A stretch of 53,701 bases of DNA from Desulfurococcales archaeon (GTDB taxonomy: Archaea; Thermoproteota; Thermoprotei_A; Sulfolobales; NBVN01), in the NCBI GenBank assembly GCA_015523295.1, contig WAKQ01000006.1:1-53701 (forward strand). The letters run 5' to 3'. Position 1 is the first letter of the stretch. The number at the start of each line of letters is the position of its first letter. Made by a program: the position numbers and the translations under genes. This document shows positions 1,450 through 34,136 of the stretch, piece by piece. A model generated the notes under the pieces. The model saw only the letters and a list, made by a program, of their open reading frames with translations. It did not search any database and had not been told where the DNA came from.

Positions 1450-2160
1450 CTAAGGTCGAGGCCTTACTCTGTAGATGAGGTGGACCTCCTGACCACAGCC
1501 ACATAGGGTCTGGCTAATAAGTTCCAATCTAACCCAATCGCTGAGGGGGCCAAAGCCCTCACCCTCTACAGGCGTGACAGCCTCATGACCTCCGAGAATA
1601 TAAGGGGATATGGTCACCCTATACTCATCAACTAGCCGCTCCTTAAAAAGCCTCCAGATCAGGTTACCTCCTCCCTCAACAAGAAGGGTTCTAATCCCAT
1701 CCATATAAAGATAATTAAGCACATCACCCATTTTAAGGCCGTATTTTCCTTCAACCGGCTCCAAAGAGATGACCTTGACACCTCGAAGCCGAAGCGATTC
1801 CATCCTCTCAGCAGGCGCATTTACCGATGTGAAAACTGTGGTGGGGGCCTCACCAATGTCAAAAACTCTGGCGTTGGATGGAGACCTGAGAGCACCGTCG
1901 ACAACAACCCTCAAAGGATTAGCCCCATCAATATACCTTACGGTTAGCCTAGGGTCATCTATGATCACTGTATTGGCCCCCACCATGACGGCGTCATGCA
2001 TTGCCCTAAGCCTATGAAGCCTTCTCTTATCATCAGGACAGCTTAGCCTTGACTCTCTGCTACGTGAGGCGATTTTCCCATCAGCCGACATTGTGACGAA
2101 GACTGTAACATAGGGCCTCAGCCTTAATTCCCCTCCTGACATAGACCGGGACACCATCAA
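1450..2160 (-). CDS. RibD C-terminal-type reductase (diaminohydroxypyrimidine ribosyl phosphate reductase)
   Basis: This is the riboflavin-pathway reductase that turns the ribosylamino-pyrimidinone phosphate into the ribitylamino form using NAD(P)H. The family pattern is clear: RPYVTVFVTMSADGKIAS near the N-terminus, VGANTVIIDDPRLTVR, NPLRVVVDG, and the late glycine-rich LLVEGGGNLIWRLF. It is a stand-alone reductase without the N-terminal deaminase domain of bacterial RibD, as usual in archaea (ArfC/Rib7 type). The longest frame opens at a TTG (2160); ATGs at 2157 and 2142 are more likely, the latter with GGTG upstream. In every case the start lies inside the end of the amidohydrolase gene, a 62-80 nt overlap that implies co-expression. 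Confidence 0.88.
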   Translation of the reverse strand: MMVSRSMSGGELRLRPYVTVFVTMSADGKIASRSRESRLSCPDDKRRLHRLRAMHDAVMVGANTVIIDDPRLTVRYIDGANPLRVVVDGALRSPSNARVFDIGEAPTTVFTSVNAPAERMESLRLRGVKVISLEPVEGKYGLKMGDVLNYLYMDGIRTLLVEGGGNLIWRLFKERLVDEYRVTISPYILGGHEAVTPVEGEGFGPLSDWVRLELISQTLCGCGQEVHLIYRVRPRP

Positions 2161-3250
2161 CTACCACGCAGTCCACCAGATCTCTTCCACCACGCTTTAT
2201 TATACCTACAGCCTTATCTTTAGCGACTTCAAGGGATGTACCCCAATACCTCATTAATGTAAAGGAGATCCTCTCGCCTTCTAAGAGAACATTATTAGCA
2301 CCGACAGGCTCTGCGTTAAAAGCAGCCTTAAGTATCCAAGAAGGATCGTTAACCCCGCTCCCTCTGAGCTGATAGAAAAGGACTTCCATGTCCCTCCATA
2401 TGTCGGGCTCTAACCACCCTCCATTATCGGTACCTATAGAGACATGAATGCCTGACTCGTAGATAGCCTTGAGTGGGGGGGTACCTGAGAGGAACCACAT
2501 GTTCGACCTGGGGCATATTATGAGGTGAGTCCCTCTCTCAGCAAGGGTTTCGATCTCCTCATCAGTGAGCCAAACACCGTGTATAACAGCCTTAGGGGTC
2601 CCATAAGCTAGGAGTTTTCCCACATCACCCTCGTCGTGAGTCTCCTTGGTCTCCGATATGTGTGAGAAGACAGGTATATGTAAGGAATCAGCAATTCTGA
2701 AAATTGATCTCAATTCTTCCTCCCTAAAGTATAGCGGTGATGAGATCCCTAAGCCTTCTGCCATACCTGCCAGCTCCCTTAAATACCCCTCGTCATCGGC
2801 CTTCCCCTGTTCAGGCATTGCAAGGACATAATGACCAGGACTTCTCAAACCGTTATCCAGGAAGAGGCCTCGGGCTCCAAGCTCTCTGAACTCGGCCAGA
2901 TACCCTATTCCGTAACTCCTACATAGCTTAACGAATCTATCAATACTTTTCCTTAACTCACTTGTCGGCATCTTCTCCAGTAGGATGTACTTAAGCCCGT
3001 AGGGCTCGCCTACAAGCGTGTCTATATCGAGGTCCCATCCCGCCTCCGCGATCATATAGTCCATTGAATGAACATGCATGTTTGCTATAGGAGGCATTGC
3101 AAGATAGCTCCTTAAATCTAGCTTCCCAGAAGCCCCGTGCTCAACACTCTCAACCCTTAGATCCCCATCAACGTAAATTGTGAGGGGTCCCTCAATGAAT
3201 TCAAGCGACTTACCCATGATTGCAGCGCTTACTGTAAAGGACAATCCCAT
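2081..3250 (-). CDS. Amidohydrolase-superfamily deaminase (ATZ/TRZ/MTA-SAH deaminase-like)
   Basis: The protein is a metal-dependent TIM-barrel hydrolase of the SsnA/AtzA/guanine-deaminase group. The metal ligands are visible: the HxH pair in ANMHVHSMD (about residues 57-64), the histidine of FSHISE, the histidine of VIHGVWLTDEEIE, and the aspartate of GTDNGG. The glutamate in H-x-x-E (SHISE) is the general acid/base of the deaminase branch, so aromatic-base deamination is more likely than simple amide hydrolysis. Known relatives act on 5'-methylthioadenosine, guanine or s-triazines. Its 3' end overlaps the riboflavin reductase gene by up to 80 nt, making a pyrimidine intermediate of that pathway an attractive substrate; that is inference. 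Start is ATG 3250, with an alternative at 3217. Confidence 0.8.
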   Translation of the reverse strand: MGLSFTVSAAIMGKSLEFIEGPLTIYVDGDLRVESVEHGASGKLDLRSYLAMPPIANMHVHSMDYMIAEAGWDLDIDTLVGEPYGLKYILLEKMPTSELRKSIDRFVKLCRSYGIGYLAEFRELGARGLFLDNGLRSPGHYVLAMPEQGKADDEGYLRELAGMAEGLGISSPLYFREEELRSIFRIADSLHIPVFSHISETKETHDEGDVGKLLAYGTPKAVIHGVWLTDEEIETLAERGTHLIICPRSNMWFLSGTPPLKAIYESGIHVSIGTDNGGWLEPDIWRDMEVLFYQLRGSGVNDPSWILKAAFNAEPVGANNVLLEGERISFTLMRYWGTSLEVAKDKAVGIIKRGGRDLVDCVVVDGVPVYVRRGIKAEALCYSLRHNVG

Positions 3251-3372: not shown

Positions 3373-4398
3373 ATGATTAATAGCGAACCGCCTGACAGGC
3401 ATGTCCTCGATCATGACCTACTAGTCGATTTTAAGGGGAGGGTTTATGTGGTCGTAGGTAACTCCCATCCTCCAGATGGTTTCATCGCTTATCTGAAGTA
3501 CATTCCCACAAGGACTCCAACATTGTGGAGATGGCGGGGAGTGTGGTTGAAGAGGGTTCTAAAGGACTACGGGGTTAGAAATGTTGTGGAAGTTTCTGAA
3601 GCACATTACAAAATGAGATACGACCCCGCATTAAACAGTGAGGTCCCCTTCCTAAGAAGGGGGGAAGTGACGGAATGGCTAAGGCCTGAAGATGCTATGA
3701 AGAGGTTATTGTCCAAGCCTGAAGACGTCCTCGAAGCTAAAGCTTTAGATGCCGTACTAAGGATATCTAAGAACGCTGGTTTAAGCCCTTCATCCATAGG
3801 GGTAGGTGGCTCAATCCTCTTACGCTCCCATAATCCATGCTTCTCCGACATAAACCTCACCGTCTATGGTTGTAGGGAAACTCTGAATGTTGCCCTGGCC
3901 GAAGACATTGGGCTGGATCCTATGCCTAAGCATATTCTAGCAAGGAGAATATTCAATAAGTCCAGAATACACAGCCTCCCCCCAGATATCGTAAGAGAGC
4001 TAATCCCATCATACAGGAAGGTCGCAATTGGGAATACACCAGTAGGGATTACATTCGTGGACAGCATCCCTAGACGGTACGGTGAGGAGGTTCTTAAGCC
4101 CATAACCCGTGTGAAGTGTACAGCACACGTTGAGGGTATGGGCTGTAGGTCTCTCTTCTATCCTTCAAGGACTAAGATAAGCGAATGTGTGTTTAATAGG
4201 CTGGATAGTTTAGTAGATGAGGAATTCAGGCCTGATGAAGTGAGCGAGGTCGTCAGCTATGAGGGTCTCTTCAACTACATTCTTTTCAGAGGAGGTTGCG
4301 TAAGGATTGAAGGGATTCTGGAGAGGAGGTATCCAGATGGTGACATCATTATATTGGTGGGGGGTAAGGAACACCCGGGCTATGTCATTCCTTGCTGA
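3373..4398 (+). CDS. Predicted archaeal nucleotidyltransferase (COG1665-like)
   Basis: The centre of this 341-residue protein carries a nucleotidyltransferase-like signature: SSIGVGGSILLRS followed by CFSDINLTVYG (about residues 142-167), that is G-G-S then acidic-x-N/D, as in the DNA polymerase beta fold. The second acidic position is Asn (D-I-N) instead of Asp, which is unusual for an active site. The N-terminal about 120 residues and the C-terminal about 130 residues have no motif I recognise. The ATG at 3373 has GAGGG close upstream. The 3' end runs 19 nt into the convergent lysyl-tRNA synthetase gene. Family assignment is from memory and moderate; the substrate is unknown. Confidence 0.5.
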   Translation: MINSEPPDRHVLDHDLLVDFKGRVYVVVGNSHPPDGFIAYLKYIPTRTPTLWRWRGVWLKRVLKDYGVRNVVEVSEAHYKMRYDPALNSEVPFLRRGEVTEWLRPEDAMKRLLSKPEDVLEAKALDAVLRISKNAGLSPSSIGVGGSILLRSHNPCFSDINLTVYGCRETLNVALAEDIGLDPMPKHILARRIFNKSRIHSLPPDIVRELIPSYRKVAIGNTPVGITFVDSIPRRYGEEVLKPITRVKCTAHVEGMGCRSLFYPSRTKISECVFNRLDSLVDEEFRPDEVSEVVSYEGLFNYILFRGGCVRIEGILERRYPDGDIIILVGGKEHPGYVIPC

Positions 4399-5855
4399 GA
4401 CTTCTTGAGCATTGGGAAAGGTATTACCTCCTTGATAGATGTTTGCCCCGTCAATATCAACGCAAGCCTATCGATCCCAACTCCTAGGCCTCCGGTAGGC
4501 GGCATACCGTACTCTAGAGCCTCAATAAAATCCCAGTCGAACGGATGTGCCTCCACATCGCCTCTCTTTCTCCTCTCCTCTTCCATTCTAAAGTACTCCT
4601 CCTGTAATACAGGATCATTAAGCTCTGTATAGGCGTTAGCGAGCTCCGTCCCTGCTATGTAAAGCTCGAACCTCTCAGCATACCTTTCATCGCTCCTGTG
4701 CGGCTTAGTGAGAGGTGACGAAGATCTAGGAAAGTCGATTACAAACGTCGGCTGAAGAAGGTGTTCCCTACCAACGAGTTTATCAAATAACTTAACTATC
4801 GCCCTACCCCTGTCGTATCCTCCAGATAACGCTATCTGATTCTCCCTGAGAAGGTCTTTAATGGTGTCATCACTCAAGACCTCAACGTCGATGTTAGCGT
4901 ACTCCCTTAACCCATCCACAAGCCTGACCTTCTTAAAGGGAGGGCTTAAATCGATAATGGTCCCGCTTCCTTCAGGATATTCTATCTTGTTTGTTCCCAC
5001 GACCTTCTTAGCTACTGTATTAACCAGCTCCTCTGTGAGCCTCATGATGGAATTGTAGTCAGCGTATGCCTCATAGGACTCCATCATGGTAAATTCCGGG
5101 TTATGGAGGACGTCTATATCCTCATTCCTGAAGTTCTTACCTATTTCAAACACCTTGTTGAATCCCGCAATTATTAACCTTTTAAGATAGAGCTCGAGAC
5201 TGATCCTCAGATACCAATCCTCATCTAAGGCCCAGATATGGGTCTTAAAGGGTCTGGCCTCAGCACCACCATAAACCGGTTGAAGGACGGGCGTCTCAAC
5301 CTCCAAGTAGCCTTTAGACCACATGAACTTCCTGACCTCCTCTACCAGGCGGAACCTCGTCTCCAGAACCCTCCTAACCTGAGGGGTCATCATCACATCT
5401 AGATATCTTTTTCTATATCTCGTCTCAGGGTCCATCAGCCGGTGTCCCCACTTAACTGGTGGAGACCTCAAAGCCTTGGCAAGGAGGAAGTAGTCCGAGA
5501 CGCCGATCGTGAGTTCCCCTTTCCTCGTGTAGTAAAGCTTGCCATACACGTTGATGAAGTCACCTAAATTCATCACCTTCAAGAACTCCTCAAATCTCTC
5601 CTTCCCAACCTCTCCAGCGTTGATGGAACACTGAATCTTCTCGCCGTCATCCACAATATCAAAGAAGATAAGCTTCCCATGTCTCCTGAAGGACACAATC
5701 CTGCCCGCAGCTGGTACGTAGGAGCCTAAAGAAGGTCTTTCCTTGATCTCCTTGACAGGCATAGGTCTGAACTTCGGCGTGTGAGGGTAGGGATTAATCC
5801 CTGCCTTGAACAGGTCCTCACGCATTTTCCTCCTTTGCTCCCTCTCAACACTCAA
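4380..5855 (-). CDS. lysS: Lysyl-tRNA synthetase, class II
   Basis: This enzyme charges tRNA-Lys. An N-terminal OB-fold anticodon-binding domain (about residues 45-130, GRIVSFRRHGKLIFFDI) precedes the class II catalytic core. Motif 1 lies around FMWSKGYLEVETPVLQP, motif 2 is FRNEDIDVLHNPEFTMME, and motif 3 is GGLGVGIDRLALILTG near the C-terminus. The 491-residue length is normal. The TTG start at 5855 has AGGTG seven bases upstream; ATG 5825 with AGGAGG three bases upstream is the alternative (481 residues). Many archaea instead use the unrelated class I enzyme, so the class II type is informative about lineage. The gene ends inside the convergent nucleotidyltransferase gene. Confidence 0.95.
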   Translation of the reverse strand: MSVEREQRRKMREDLFKAGINPYPHTPKFRPMPVKEIKERPSLGSYVPAAGRIVSFRRHGKLIFFDIVDDGEKIQCSINAGEVGKERFEEFLKVMNLGDFINVYGKLYYTRKGELTIGVSDYFLLAKALRSPPVKWGHRLMDPETRYRKRYLDVMMTPQVRRVLETRFRLVEEVRKFMWSKGYLEVETPVLQPVYGGAEARPFKTHIWALDEDWYLRISLELYLKRLIIAGFNKVFEIGKNFRNEDIDVLHNPEFTMMESYEAYADYNSIMRLTEELVNTVAKKVVGTNKIEYPEGSGTIIDLSPPFKKVRLVDGLREYANIDVEVLSDDTIKDLLRENQIALSGGYDRGRAIVKLFDKLVGREHLLQPTFVIDFPRSSSPLTKPHRSDERYAERFELYIAGTELANAYTELNDPVLQEEYFRMEEERRKRGDVEAHPFDWDFIEALEYGMPPTGGLGVGIDRLALILTGQTSIKEVIPFPMLKKSQQGMT

Positions 5856-5953: not shown

Positions 5954-7636
5954 TCAAGGCCTGTAAAGAATTGCCTGCCATATATTCCCAGTAAGTGGAG
6001 TCATGCCAGCCAACACTTCAAGCCCTCTTGCAATAGTAGCAAGAATTACAACTGTTATTACTGCTTTATCCATTCTCTCAATGAAAGGTGAAAGATGTGC
6101 CTCGAGAGGGATATTCAGGAGAAGCCTATGAATTATAACTGATGGAGTGAATAGAAGAAGGGGTGCTGCAACAGCTAATAAAGCTGAGACGGGAGTTATG
6201 ATAGGAGTTAACGAAGAAATAATGTAGACAAGGGAGTTTGATTGCGACCCCCAGGTCCAGAACTCGATCCCTCTAAAGAGGCTTTTAGGCAGGTAAAATC
6301 CTAAAGAGTTTGCTAATGTGGCTGAAGCCGTTGCAGAGGGACTAACATTAGCGGTTATAAGGTCTACCACCTCACTGGCACACAATGCAATAGATAAAAT
6401 TATAGATGGTTCAACCAGTTCCCTAAATCTAAGCTTTTCAATCCTCCAGGCATAGGCTATGTAAGCAACTGAAAACATAATAAATGTCCAAGGATGTATA
6501 AGAGAGACAAGGAGTGAGAGTAAGAGTAGCCTGGCTCGGGACTTGGGGCTTGTTGAAAGCATAAGTATAGCTAAGGGTAACGCCACTGAATTTGCTTGGA
6601 AGCCCCCTGATATGAACGTAACTGCGCTATGACCTAAAGGTGCAAGTAAAGCAGCGATTGAGCCACCGTTCTCACCAGCAAATCTCCTCACAAATAAATA
6701 GGTAGTAATAGTGAGTAGTGTTAAAGCTACGGCAGGATGGATTAAATCTAAAAGAAGGACAGGGTCTATCAACTTGCAAACATAGTAGAGCAGGACAAGG
6801 TAGGCTGGCCTCGCAAATCCTTTAAACTTGAGTAATGCAAAGAAAAGACCATGTGAATTCGCGTACTTCAGGAATTTCATATAATAGAAGGTGTCAACGC
6901 TCACAGGATAGTGTCCGGGATCTACAGTAGGAAGGTGTGGAAGGGTGACGGCAAGTAAGACAAGGCCTACTGACATACTCAAAGCTATCTTGCTGGAGAG
7001 CTTAAACCTTCCATTTCTTAACTCATCCAAAACATTTTCAGCCACTTCCTTCAGAGGGAATTCACGTCCACCTAAGTAGCTATAGGTCCAGAACAGTGCT
7101 GATATGGCTAGTAACGGTATTGAAACCCACTCCATGAATCCCCACATAAACCTCTCCCTAAGTATGATAGCCTTGGAAATCAGGGTCCATGAACCCATAG
7201 CAAAGTAACTCATGGTTGACGTGACTACAGCAACTTCAAATAGTATTATTAGGTAAGCCGACGGTATAATAACCTCTCTTAAACCCAGATGCTTGTAGAG
7301 TGTGTAGAGAGTGATTATTGCTGATGCTGAAAAAAGTGAAAGGATCGGTGGATAACCTAATAGAGCGTATAGCAGGTAGCCAGTGAAGGCTACGACAATG
7401 GATGTAAATGGATACTTCATCCCTAACTTCAGGGCGTATCCTGTAACTAAGGATGATACCACTATAACGATAAAGTCGAAAGGTAAGTAGCCGAGAAATG
7501 GTTGAGTGTTCACAATGTATTTAAGGGTTCGATTTTCAATGAAGCTTACAGGGAGCCATCCAAAACCGGCATAATACATGGCGTAAACTACAAGCAGACC
7601 TGTAATAAATTTGATCGCCGCTGACTTCAAACTCAT
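5954..7636 (-). CDS. Large polytopic membrane protein, possibly GT-C-like
   Basis: The 560-residue protein is almost wholly hydrophobic, with roughly 12-14 membrane spans. The longest polar stretch (about residues 225-270) contains HLPTVDPGHYPVSVDTFYYMK. An acidic, aromatic-rich loop between early spans, followed by many further spans, is the layout of GT-C glycosyltransferases and oligosaccharyl-transferase relatives. I see no decisive motif, so this is inference only. It starts at ATG 7636, and its promoter region (7637-7714) is shared with the divergent small membrane protein at 7715. A surface-glycan role would suit that neighbour, which looks like an exported anchored peptide. Confidence 0.5.
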   Translation of the reverse strand: MSLKSAAIKFITGLLVVYAMYYAGFGWLPVSFIENRTLKYIVNTQPFLGYLPFDFIVIVVSSLVTGYALKLGMKYPFTSIVVAFTGYLLYALLGYPPILSLFSASAIITLYTLYKHLGLREVIIPSAYLIILFEVAVVTSTMSYFAMGSWTLISKAIILRERFMWGFMEWVSIPLLAISALFWTYSYLGGREFPLKEVAENVLDELRNGRFKLSSKIALSMSVGLVLLAVTLPHLPTVDPGHYPVSVDTFYYMKFLKYANSHGLFFALLKFKGFARPAYLVLLYYVCKLIDPVLLLDLIHPAVALTLLTITTYLFVRRFAGENGGSIAALLAPLGHSAVTFISGGFQANSVALPLAILMLSTSPKSRARLLLLSLLVSLIHPWTFIMFSVAYIAYAWRIEKLRFRELVEPSIILSIALCASEVVDLITANVSPSATASATLANSLGFYLPKSLFRGIEFWTWGSQSNSLVYIISSLTPIITPVSALLAVAAPLLLFTPSVIIHRLLLNIPLEAHLSPFIERMDKAVITVVILATIARGLEVLAGMTPLTGNIWQAILYRP

Positions 7637-21534: not shown

Positions 21535-22878
21535 ATGATTGAACTCTTAACTCGTTTACCCTCTACACCTGGGAAATGCCAAATGAGGATCCTGCAGATA
21601 CTACCTCTATTGCTGATGCTCGCGCTCTTCTTAAGTAACATAAGCCCTATTACTTCACAGATTCCTTCAAGCCTTGAAGGTAGTGGGTTTTCCTCATTCA
21701 ATAACGGAGTGCTTGCCATAGTAGGTCCTGAGGGGTTGTTAATTACTATTAATAGCTGCATCAACGCGTTGAAGGTGAATCTTTCCAAGCACTTCAATCC
21801 TATTGAAGTGCTCACAGTCAATCGCACAATATTCGTCGCAGGCTCATATATGGGGGAACCAGCAATAGTCCAGCTCACTCTTAAGGGCTGCACATTACCT
21901 AAAACCGCCCACATTATCACACTATCGGGTTTGAAGGGCAAAGTTTTTCATCTAGTATGGAATGGTAGAGAAGTCTACGGGGTAGGTTATGTTGAGTCCT
22001 TAGGTAGGTTTGAAGGTATTCTCATCACATTGCCATTAAACAGAATAAACTCAACCCTCTATGCAACCGCCTACAGTATATCCTGGAGCATGCTAAAAAC
22101 GATGGTCAATCAGTCGATCTACTTCAGGGATGTGATTCCCGTAGCTACTACCACATTAATCTTGGGAGGCATATCCTATAATGGAAGGTACTACCCCCTC
22201 ATAGTCAATGGCTCCCAGGGCTTAGCCTATATACAGTTTATCAACACCATGGGAAGTTACTGGGTTAAGGGGTTCATAACATGTGATGGTAGATCCTCTA
22301 CGTTCTTGGTGAGCAAAGACCATGAGCTCTATATAGCTAATGCTTCGAGTAATAATCTAACGCTCTTGAAGATTATGGAAAAGGTGAAGAATGCGTGGGT
22401 GATCCATGGGTATGATGTGGCATGGCTTGCATTGGCTGAGCTAGATAATAATACGTTTATCATCATTGGCTCAGAAGGTACTTGCATGATTGAGGAAAGC
22501 AGATATGTTATTTTCGTAGATCCCTATGAGGTGCTTGCAGGGACCTCACTTCCTCTACGCAAGGTGAGGTTAGAGTGTTCAGGTTCGATTAAGCCGCTGG
22601 ATATAAATGTTGTAAAGCCTGTGAGGGTGGTTCTGAAGATGGCTAAGTTACGTGAAAGCGTGATCTTCATGAACGTAAGTGGAAGAACTTGGGAAATCTA
22701 CCCTCCCACATCATCCCAGGGGTCAGTTATTAGGTCGCTTCCTAACAACCTAAACGCGAGTGAAGCAGGAGGATATGTTAGGAGTAAGGTTTTCAGGGTT
22801 AACCAGGTTATGTTGCTTACTGGGTTGGCCCTTGTGACTGCCTCCTTAATTGCTGAATGGAAGTTAAAAAGGGGATAA
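21535..22878 (+). CDS. Secreted, C-terminally anchored protein, unknown
   Basis: The 447-residue protein has a signal-like segment (MRILQILPLLLMLALFLS if started at ATG 21583; the frame opens at ATG 21535), a long external part rich in beta strands and in N-x-S/T sites, and a C-terminal membrane helix (about 425-442) with a basic tail (KLKRG). Strand-loop units such as GVLAIVGPEG, TIFVAGSYMG and EVYGVGYVES recall a beta-propeller, which is inference. Four or more cysteines are spread through the external part. It follows the four-span membrane protein by 6 nt. No family recognised. Confidence 0.6.
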   Translation: MIELLTRLPSTPGKCQMRILQILPLLLMLALFLSNISPITSQIPSSLEGSGFSSFNNGVLAIVGPEGLLITINSCINALKVNLSKHFNPIEVLTVNRTIFVAGSYMGEPAIVQLTLKGCTLPKTAHIITLSGLKGKVFHLVWNGREVYGVGYVESLGRFEGILITLPLNRINSTLYATAYSISWSMLKTMVNQSIYFRDVIPVATTTLILGGISYNGRYYPLIVNGSQGLAYIQFINTMGSYWVKGFITCDGRSSTFLVSKDHELYIANASSNNLTLLKIMEKVKNAWVIHGYDVAWLALAELDNNTFIIIGSEGTCMIEESRYVIFVDPYEVLAGTSLPLRKVRLECSGSIKPLDINVVKPVRVVLKMAKLRESVIFMNVSGRTWEIYPPTSSQGSVIRSLPNNLNASEAGGYVRSKVFRVNQVMLLTGLALVTASLIAEWKLKRG

Positions 22879-32798: not shown

Positions 32799-34136
32799 TC
32801 AATACCTAGACTTGATTCTACTTAGGAAATCATCGATTAACTCGCCGATCGACGGGCCTTCTAGCACTTTGAGTTCCCAGCTTACTCTGACCACTGGCTT
32901 TTTAATATTTATAAGCCTTGTTACATCTGCCGGGCTTCCCATCACGACGGCATCAACTTCAGCTTTGTTGATGGTCTCTTCTAAATCCCTCAACTGTTCA
33001 GGTGTGTATCCAGTTGAGGGGAGCACTTCCTTCATGTGTGGGTATTTCTTGTAGAGCTCCTTGATGACGCCAACCGCATACTCACGCGGGTCAACGATCT
33101 CTGAAGCTTTGAACTTCTTCGCAGCCACATAACCGGCGCCGTAGGGGAGGCCGCCATGTGTAACTGATGGAGAGTCCTCCATCACTAGGACTCTCTTATT
33201 GGAGATCAGCTCAGGCTTGTCGACCGTTACTTCCATATCGGCTAGTGTTATCTTCGCCTTCGGATTTACCTCTTTTACATTGCTGACTACTTTGCGGACG
33301 TTTTCCTCACCTGCCTGCTCAACTTTATTAACTATTACAGCGTCAGCCATCCTGACATTGACCTCTCCGGGGAACGAGCCTATCTCATGACCGGGTCTCA
33401 TAGCGTCAGCCACAGTTATCATATAGTCGAACTTGTAGAATGGGAAGTCATTATTTCCACCGTCCCAGAGAATTATGTCGCCGAGTTTCTCCGCCTCCCT
33501 AAGAACCTTACCGTAATCAACCCCTGCAAGTACCGGCAGCCCCATCCTTATGTACTGCTCATACTCCTCTCTTTCCTCGATAGTCACTTTCCATCGATCC
33601 AGGTCTTCGTATGTCTTGAATACCTGAACCACCATTTCCTCTAGCTTCCCGTAAGCCATTGGATGCCTGACAGGCACAGGCTTAACGTTCTTAGCCAAGA
33701 GTTCCCTCACGACCGCCCTAGAAACTGTGGATTTCCCGGCCCCTGTTCTTACTGCAGTAACCGCTAGCACAGGCCTGAATGAGGTCAGCATAGTCTCCCT
33801 TGGGGAAAGGATTTTGAAAGAGGCGCCACTGGCAAGCGCGGTGGATATGAGTCTCCCAACATCTCCGTATACCAGGTCGCTGTAGGAGAGCACGACCTCG
33901 TCTACATGGTAATGCCTGATTATGTCTCCCAACATGCTCTCAGGTAGGATGGGTATGCCGTCAGGGTAGAGGGAGCCTGCGAGTGCAGGCGGGTACCTCC
34001 TTCTCTCAACTCCGGGGATCTGAGAAGCTGTGAAGGCCACTACCTCGTATTCTGGCTTATCCCTGTAATATACGTTAAAGTTATGGAAGTCCCTACCACC
34101 GGCTCCTATAATTACAACCCTTGTTCTATGAGACAT
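32799..34136 (-). CDS. cpgS: Cyclic 2,3-diphosphoglycerate synthetase-like P-loop protein (COG2403)
   Basis: The N-terminal Rossmann-like part (VVIIGAGGRDFHNFNVYYRD, 7-26) is followed by a P-loop VTAVRTGAGKSTVSRAV (about 127-143), DIILWDGGNNDFPF (about 217-230), an ADAVIVNKVEQA nucleotide-base region, and PSVTHGGLPYGAGYVAA (about 324-340). The outline matches the archaeal cDPG synthetase family, which makes the thermoprotectant cyclic 2,3-diphosphoglycerate in methanogens. In Thermoproteota the family is often only called a predicted GTPase, so the substrate remains open. ATG 34136 starts the gene. Confidence 0.78.
   Translation of the reverse strand: MSHRTRVVIIGAGGRDFHNFNVYYRDKPEYEVVAFTASQIPGVERRRYPPALAGSLYPDGIPILPESMLGDIIRHYHVDEVVLSYSDLVYGDVGRLISTALASGASFKILSPRETMLTSFRPVLAVTAVRTGAGKSTVSRAVVRELLAKNVKPVPVRHPMAYGKLEEMVVQVFKTYEDLDRWKVTIEEREEYEQYIRMGLPVLAGVDYGKVLREAEKLGDIILWDGGNNDFPFYKFDYMITVADAMRPGHEIGSFPGEVNVRMADAVIVNKVEQAGEENVRKVVSNVKEVNPKAKITLADMEVTVDKPELISNKRVLVMEDSPSVTHGGLPYGAGYVAAKKFKASEIVDPREYAVGVIKELYKKYPHMKEVLPSTGYTPEQLRDLEETINKAEVDAVVMGSPADVTRLINIKKPVVRVSWELKVLEGPSIGELIDDFLSRIKSRY

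Follow-up and report, generated by a model that had tools for sequence, protein, structure and literature searches.

The window, the whole stretch of 53,701 nucleotides analysed here, is contig C6 of a 932,587-base archaeal genome that is 77% complete and probably belongs to a Sulfolobales-like member of Thermoproteota. Near its start, two genes follow each other on the reverse strand. The upstream one (2081-3250) is an ORF of 389 aa with an ATG start and encodes a metal-dependent amidohydrolase of the ATZ/TRZ type (PF01979, 5e-13), for which we propose the role of 2,5-diamino-6-ribitylamino-4(3H)-pyrimidinone 5'-phosphate deaminase. The downstream one (1450-2160) encodes ArfC, the archaeal 2,5-diamino-6-(ribosylamino)-4(3H)-pyrimidinone 5'-phosphate reductase, which is 236 aa long when read from TTG. 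ArfC contains a RibD_C domain (PF01872, 5e-53) and is identified by TIGR01508, with 223 bits against the NCBIfam cut-off of 186. A deaminase domain is absent from it: the RibD match spans only positions 140-333. An earlier note on this DNA had remarked that archaea use stand-alone reductases without the bacterial deaminase domain, and these matches agree with it.

The same note had placed the overlap between the two genes at 62-80 nt. Both ORFs are indeed present, and the exact length depends on which start is used for ArfC. Four candidates lie 5' of its conserved N-terminus, namely ATG 2142, GTG 2154, ATG 2157 and TTG 2160. The 3' end of the amidohydrolase gene overlaps the 5' end of the ArfC gene by 62 nt from ATG 2142 (2081-2142, reverse strand), by 77 nt from ATG 2157 and by 80 nt from TTG 2160. 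Overlapping ends were also found in relatives of the window genome from the same family, and because the adjacency of the two genes recurs across the phylum as well, the overlap is not a matter of chance. It suggests translational coupling.

Beside the amidohydrolase gene, a divergent ORF of 341 aa (3373-4398, forward strand) matches no Pfam or NCBIfam model; by eye it contains a GGS-type motif that recalls nucleotidyltransferases. Three long ORFs elsewhere in the window (5954-7636, 21535-22878 and 32799-34136; 560, 447 and 445 aa) gave zero Pfam matches at the cut-offs used.

Active site, fold and family of the amidohydrolase

We aligned the amidohydrolase with its family in 80 rows. The metal-binding motif H59-x-H61 (3068-3076), the H197-x-x-E200 motif (2651-2662), whose putative metal ligand and catalytic glutamate are named by analogy with the superfamily, the active-site histidine H224 (2579-2581) and the metal-site aspartate D275 (2423-2428 together with N276), all on the reverse strand, show no variation across the 80 rows. 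The full set of HxH, H, H, D and the H-x-x-E glutamate noticed earlier from the sequence is thus present and invariant, and with a PF01979 match over the cut-off it places the protein among the ATZ/TRZ (COG0402-like) amidohydrolases. A second group of residues is family-specific. D64, E123 and N276 are kept in all 80 rows, and K87 and R248 in 97-99%, the latter as part of a CPRSN motif (R248 at 2507-2509, reverse strand; 79/80 rows). All five differ in both ATZ/TRZ paralogs of the window genome, where N276 is replaced by Gly in both and K87 by a gap in one. R248 is a candidate contact for the substrate or its phosphate.

The AlphaFold model (pLDDT 90.4, pTM 0.91) predicts a TIM-barrel with a composite beta domain, the fold expected of the ATZ/TRZ type. 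A Foldseek search with this model returned adenosine/MTA and guanine deaminases with a probability of 1.00 and a TMq of about 0.8, and the nearest solved folds in the PDB are adenosine/MTA deaminases, the isocytosine deaminase Vcz, guanine deaminase and triazine hydrolases. Guanine, isocytosine and the riboflavin intermediate have a 2-amino-pyrimidin-4-one group in common, which is where deamination takes place in the riboflavin step; the fold therefore suits that step. Guanine deaminase and Vcz (7ww2, 8is4) share the fold and the metal/HxxE catalytic set with the window protein, yet the identity is 15-18%, and the conserved D64, K87, E123, R248 and N276 set the family of the window protein apart from them.

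The best NCBIfam model for the window protein is NF005552/PRK07213, which it matches over its full length with 125 bits, below the equivalog cut-off of 294 bits. Orthologs next to ArfC at four loci of other lineages (L056, L058, L059 and L061) exceed this cut-off, and the model also matches in the control genomes of M. jannaschii, H. volcanii and S. acidocaldarius, among others. By these scores, the window protein is a diverged branch relative to NF005552/PRK07213. The model's label, 'chlorohydrolase', rests on no tested function, and the family is uncharacterised. In the tree, the window protein clusters with Sulfolobales and related rows with a support of 100/99. Since long branches make the root and the positions of the two paralogs unsafe, we relied on family scores rather than on the tree.

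Association with ArfC and the riboflavin pathway

We then surveyed the two genes in 200 genomes across the phylum. A full-length ortholog of the amidohydrolase was found in 78 genomes and ArfC in 88; both genes occur together in 77, the amidohydrolase alone in 1, ArfC alone in 11, and neither in 111. The association is highly significant (Fisher p = 5e-42), although kinship is uncorrected and the genomes are not independent, so that the value is to be read as strong rather than literal. On the same strand and at most 50 nt apart, the two genes were found in families f1, f13 (31/31 genomes), f22, f23, f32, f37 and f43; in f35 they lie equally close in reversed order, which brings the adjacent families to eight. 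The reversed order in f35, together with the number of adjacent families, speaks for selection acting repeatedly and against a single arrangement fixed once. The link between the amidohydrolase and ArfC is far beyond chance. The earlier note had proposed checking whether the adjacency recurs where related genomes have no RibD deaminase domain, and it does: 77 of the 78 gene-bearing genomes have ArfC, and the RibD N-terminal deaminase region was matched in no genome carrying both genes.

The same arrangement was seen at the 80 named loci, where ArfC lies downstream of the amidohydrolase in 78, including the Asgard archaeon L079, and within about 100 nt in 75 of these. In the Methanosarcinaceae L075, L090 and L143, it lies 1.1-2.3 kb downstream. 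The two loci without a downstream ArfC belong to bacterial MAGs (L124 and L126, Gemmatimonadetes and Acidimicrobiales), which contain a close pair of family members and no neighbouring ArfC. These homologs may reflect transfer to bacteria or mis-binned contigs.

Additionally, further genes of the pathway cluster with the amidohydrolase. The order RibH, ArfA (GTP cyclohydrolase III), amidohydrolase, ArfC was found in L148, L072 and L079, and in L072 ArfC is directly followed by a creatininase-family gene with an ArfB/BrbF-like fold. In L074, the amidohydrolase and ArfC are followed by CofG, and in G036 and G040 the amidohydrolase lies away from ArfC, beside RibH/RibC. With RibH, ArfA and CofG as operon partners, the amidohydrolase is linked to the riboflavin pathway. 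Consistent with this, among 41 relatives the amidohydrolase and RibH occur together in 26, the amidohydrolase alone in 2, RibH alone in 3 and neither in 10. RibH is also present in the window genome, together with a second, weaker PF00885 match whose sequence is plausibly that of an archaeal riboflavin synthase.

Other deaminases and ArfC-only genomes

Fungi, like archaea, perform reduction first and deamination second in riboflavin synthesis. The RibD N-terminal deaminase of bacteria and Rib2 of fungi carry out, in the same pathway, the type of reaction that we propose for the amidohydrolase, but they have a cytidine-deaminase (CDA) fold that is unrelated to the amidohydrolase fold. PF00383, which represents the CDA fold, gave zero matches in the window genome (77% complete) and in 24 other sampled members of its family; these 25 genomes are partly incomplete. 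Among the amidohydrolase-bearing relatives of the PF00383 sample, 5 of 28 also have a CDA-fold protein. PF00383 was likewise unmatched in the M. jannaschii control, while ArfC, RibH and NF005552 all match there. We rejected a RibD-type deaminase elsewhere in the window genome, given the lack of any RibD-region or PF00383 match across the 77% that the assembly covers.

Some genomes do not follow the general pattern. Eleven genomes of the phylum have ArfC without an ortholog of the amidohydrolase, two of them (f8) with a weak ArfC, while in G129 the amidohydrolase is present and ArfC was not detected. In the phylum of L143, ArfC occurs in 195 of 197 genomes, and about 36 have it without a clear amidohydrolase ortholog; by an eye count, about 38 genomes have no strong match to the amidohydrolase model (strong meaning an E of about 1e-45). 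We inspected about 6 kb around ArfC in 12 ArfC-only neighbourhoods and found neither a family member by HMM nor a CDA motif. Such genomes have either another enzyme located elsewhere or diverged amidohydrolase copies missed by the search. They leave room for a second solution without overturning the case. L192, from one ArfC-only genome (G197), has by eye a creatininase-like gene near ArfC (4059-4784) and no recognisable deaminase close by, which may be read as a lineage with a different deamination solution. A further locus, L193 (G037:C1:810057-810686), encodes an ArfC-like reductase in a near-complete f8 genome without RibH and amidohydrolase. Since RibH is absent from G037, its ArfC copy may not serve riboflavin and is perhaps a repurposed reductase.

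A predicted deaminase for the archaeal riboflavin step

Taken together, we consider it highly probable (roughly 85%) that the amidohydrolase is the deaminase of the archaeal riboflavin pathway. Gene structure, motifs, predicted fold, co-occurrence, pathway clustering and the missing CDA-fold match in the window genome (77% complete) and the sampled members of its family are observations; which reaction takes place, on which substrate and with which residues in which role we add by inference. The candidate that the earlier note had put forward for this step is thus strengthened by the co-occurrence with ArfC, the adjacency in eight families and the operons with RibH, ArfA and CofG, as a functional prediction. 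ArfC reduces its ribosyl pyrimidine phosphate substrate, which yields 2,5-diamino-6-ribitylamino-4(3H)-pyrimidinone 5'-phosphate, and the amidohydrolase would then exchange the amino group at C2 for oxygen through a metal-bound water. In this putative mechanism, HxH, H197 and D275 would hold the metal, E200 and H224 would transfer protons, and 5-amino-6-ribitylamino-uracil 5'-phosphate and ammonia would be released. Once dephosphorylated, the product would pass to RibH for riboflavin and, where present, to CofG/CofH for F420. The two genes are probably co-transcribed as well as translationally coupled.

We weighed three other explanations. The amidohydrolase could be a housekeeping or salvage deaminase, acting on MTA/SAH, 5'-deoxyadenosine, guanine or 8-oxoguanine, that sits beside ArfC by accident. 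The shared superfamily and fold would fit this, and the top PDB matches include MTA/SAH and guanine deaminases. However, the window protein scores 25-43 bits with the NCBIfam models of the MTA/SAH, 5'-deoxyadenosine and guanine deaminases, against cut-offs of 375-779. Two further ATZ/TRZ paralogs are encoded in the genome, one reaching 400 bits with the 5'-deoxyadenosine deaminase model and the other 355 bits with SsnA; both stay under the cut-offs of these models, but being nearer to them they are better candidates for salvage duties. Moreover, the presence of the gene follows ArfC and RibH, and the pathway clustering is repeated across phyla. We therefore regard a salvage role as very unlikely.

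Less probable again is a role in a different hydrolysis within the pathway, for instance removal of the formyl group from the GTP cyclohydrolase III product (the ArfB role). Amidohydrolases are able to act on formimino and related bonds (HutF is an example), the pathway needs a deformylase too, and ArfA is present in the operons. Against this, the creatininase-family gene after ArfC in L072 accompanies an amidohydrolase, so that the place of the deformylase looks taken there, and the nearest folds are base deaminases. We give the least credence to a damage-control enzyme that clears reactive diaminopyrimidines as side products while another enzyme is the true deaminase. The ArfC-only genomes do indicate that some lineages manage without the amidohydrolase, but where it is present the co-occurrence is near-perfect, the RibD-type deaminase region was not found in those genomes, and one would expect more frequent losses of an enzyme that only cleans up side products.

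Beyond the window, it is quite likely that this family of TIM-barrel metal-dependent deaminases, ranging over Thermoproteota (ammonia oxidisers included), Asgard archaea and methanogens/haloarchaea, is how archaea in general solve riboflavin/F420 deamination, as a non-orthologous replacement of RibD/Rib2. The suggestion that the step has an unrelated-fold solution gains weight from a predicted TIM-barrel that folds like base deaminases and from the lack of a CDA-fold match in the 77% complete window genome, with the function itself a prediction. If true, one pathway step is carried out by two unrelated folds in separate domains of life.

The idea probably has a precedent in part. PMC8305020 states that three gaps remained in the archaeal riboflavin pathway and that Rodionova et al. 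2017 had supplied candidates for two of them. In its Table 6, the row between ArfC and the phosphatase gap carries HVO_2483/MJ0699 as a 'prediction' credited to Rodionova et al. 2017. Because M. jannaschii and H. volcanii both match NF005552, these proteins probably belong to the same family as the window amidohydrolase. They are predicted for the same pathway; the window protein comes from another lineage and is adjacent to ArfC. The passages considered from a 2026 review describe the archaeal pathway as conserved with bacteria from the third step onwards and name no archaeal deaminase. The earlier remark that archaea lack a firmly assigned deaminase holds as far as biochemical proof is concerned, since no experimentally characterised archaeal riboflavin deaminase was found in the literature searched; it needs amending in that a predicted candidate exists. 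Within the literature covered, which includes PMC8305020, the place of the deaminase is vacant or at best filled by a predicted gene. For methanogens, ammonia oxidisers and crenarchaea, a strong, operon-backed candidate would help complete the route by which FMN, FAD and F420 are made, and the assignment would replace the misleading database name 'chlorohydrolase'.

Finally, two Methanosarcina-like loci (L143, 1834-2685; L159, 149-997) encode a four-CBS-domain protein between the amidohydrolase and ArfC, or near the amidohydrolase, which is a possible nucleotide-sensing partner of the pathway.
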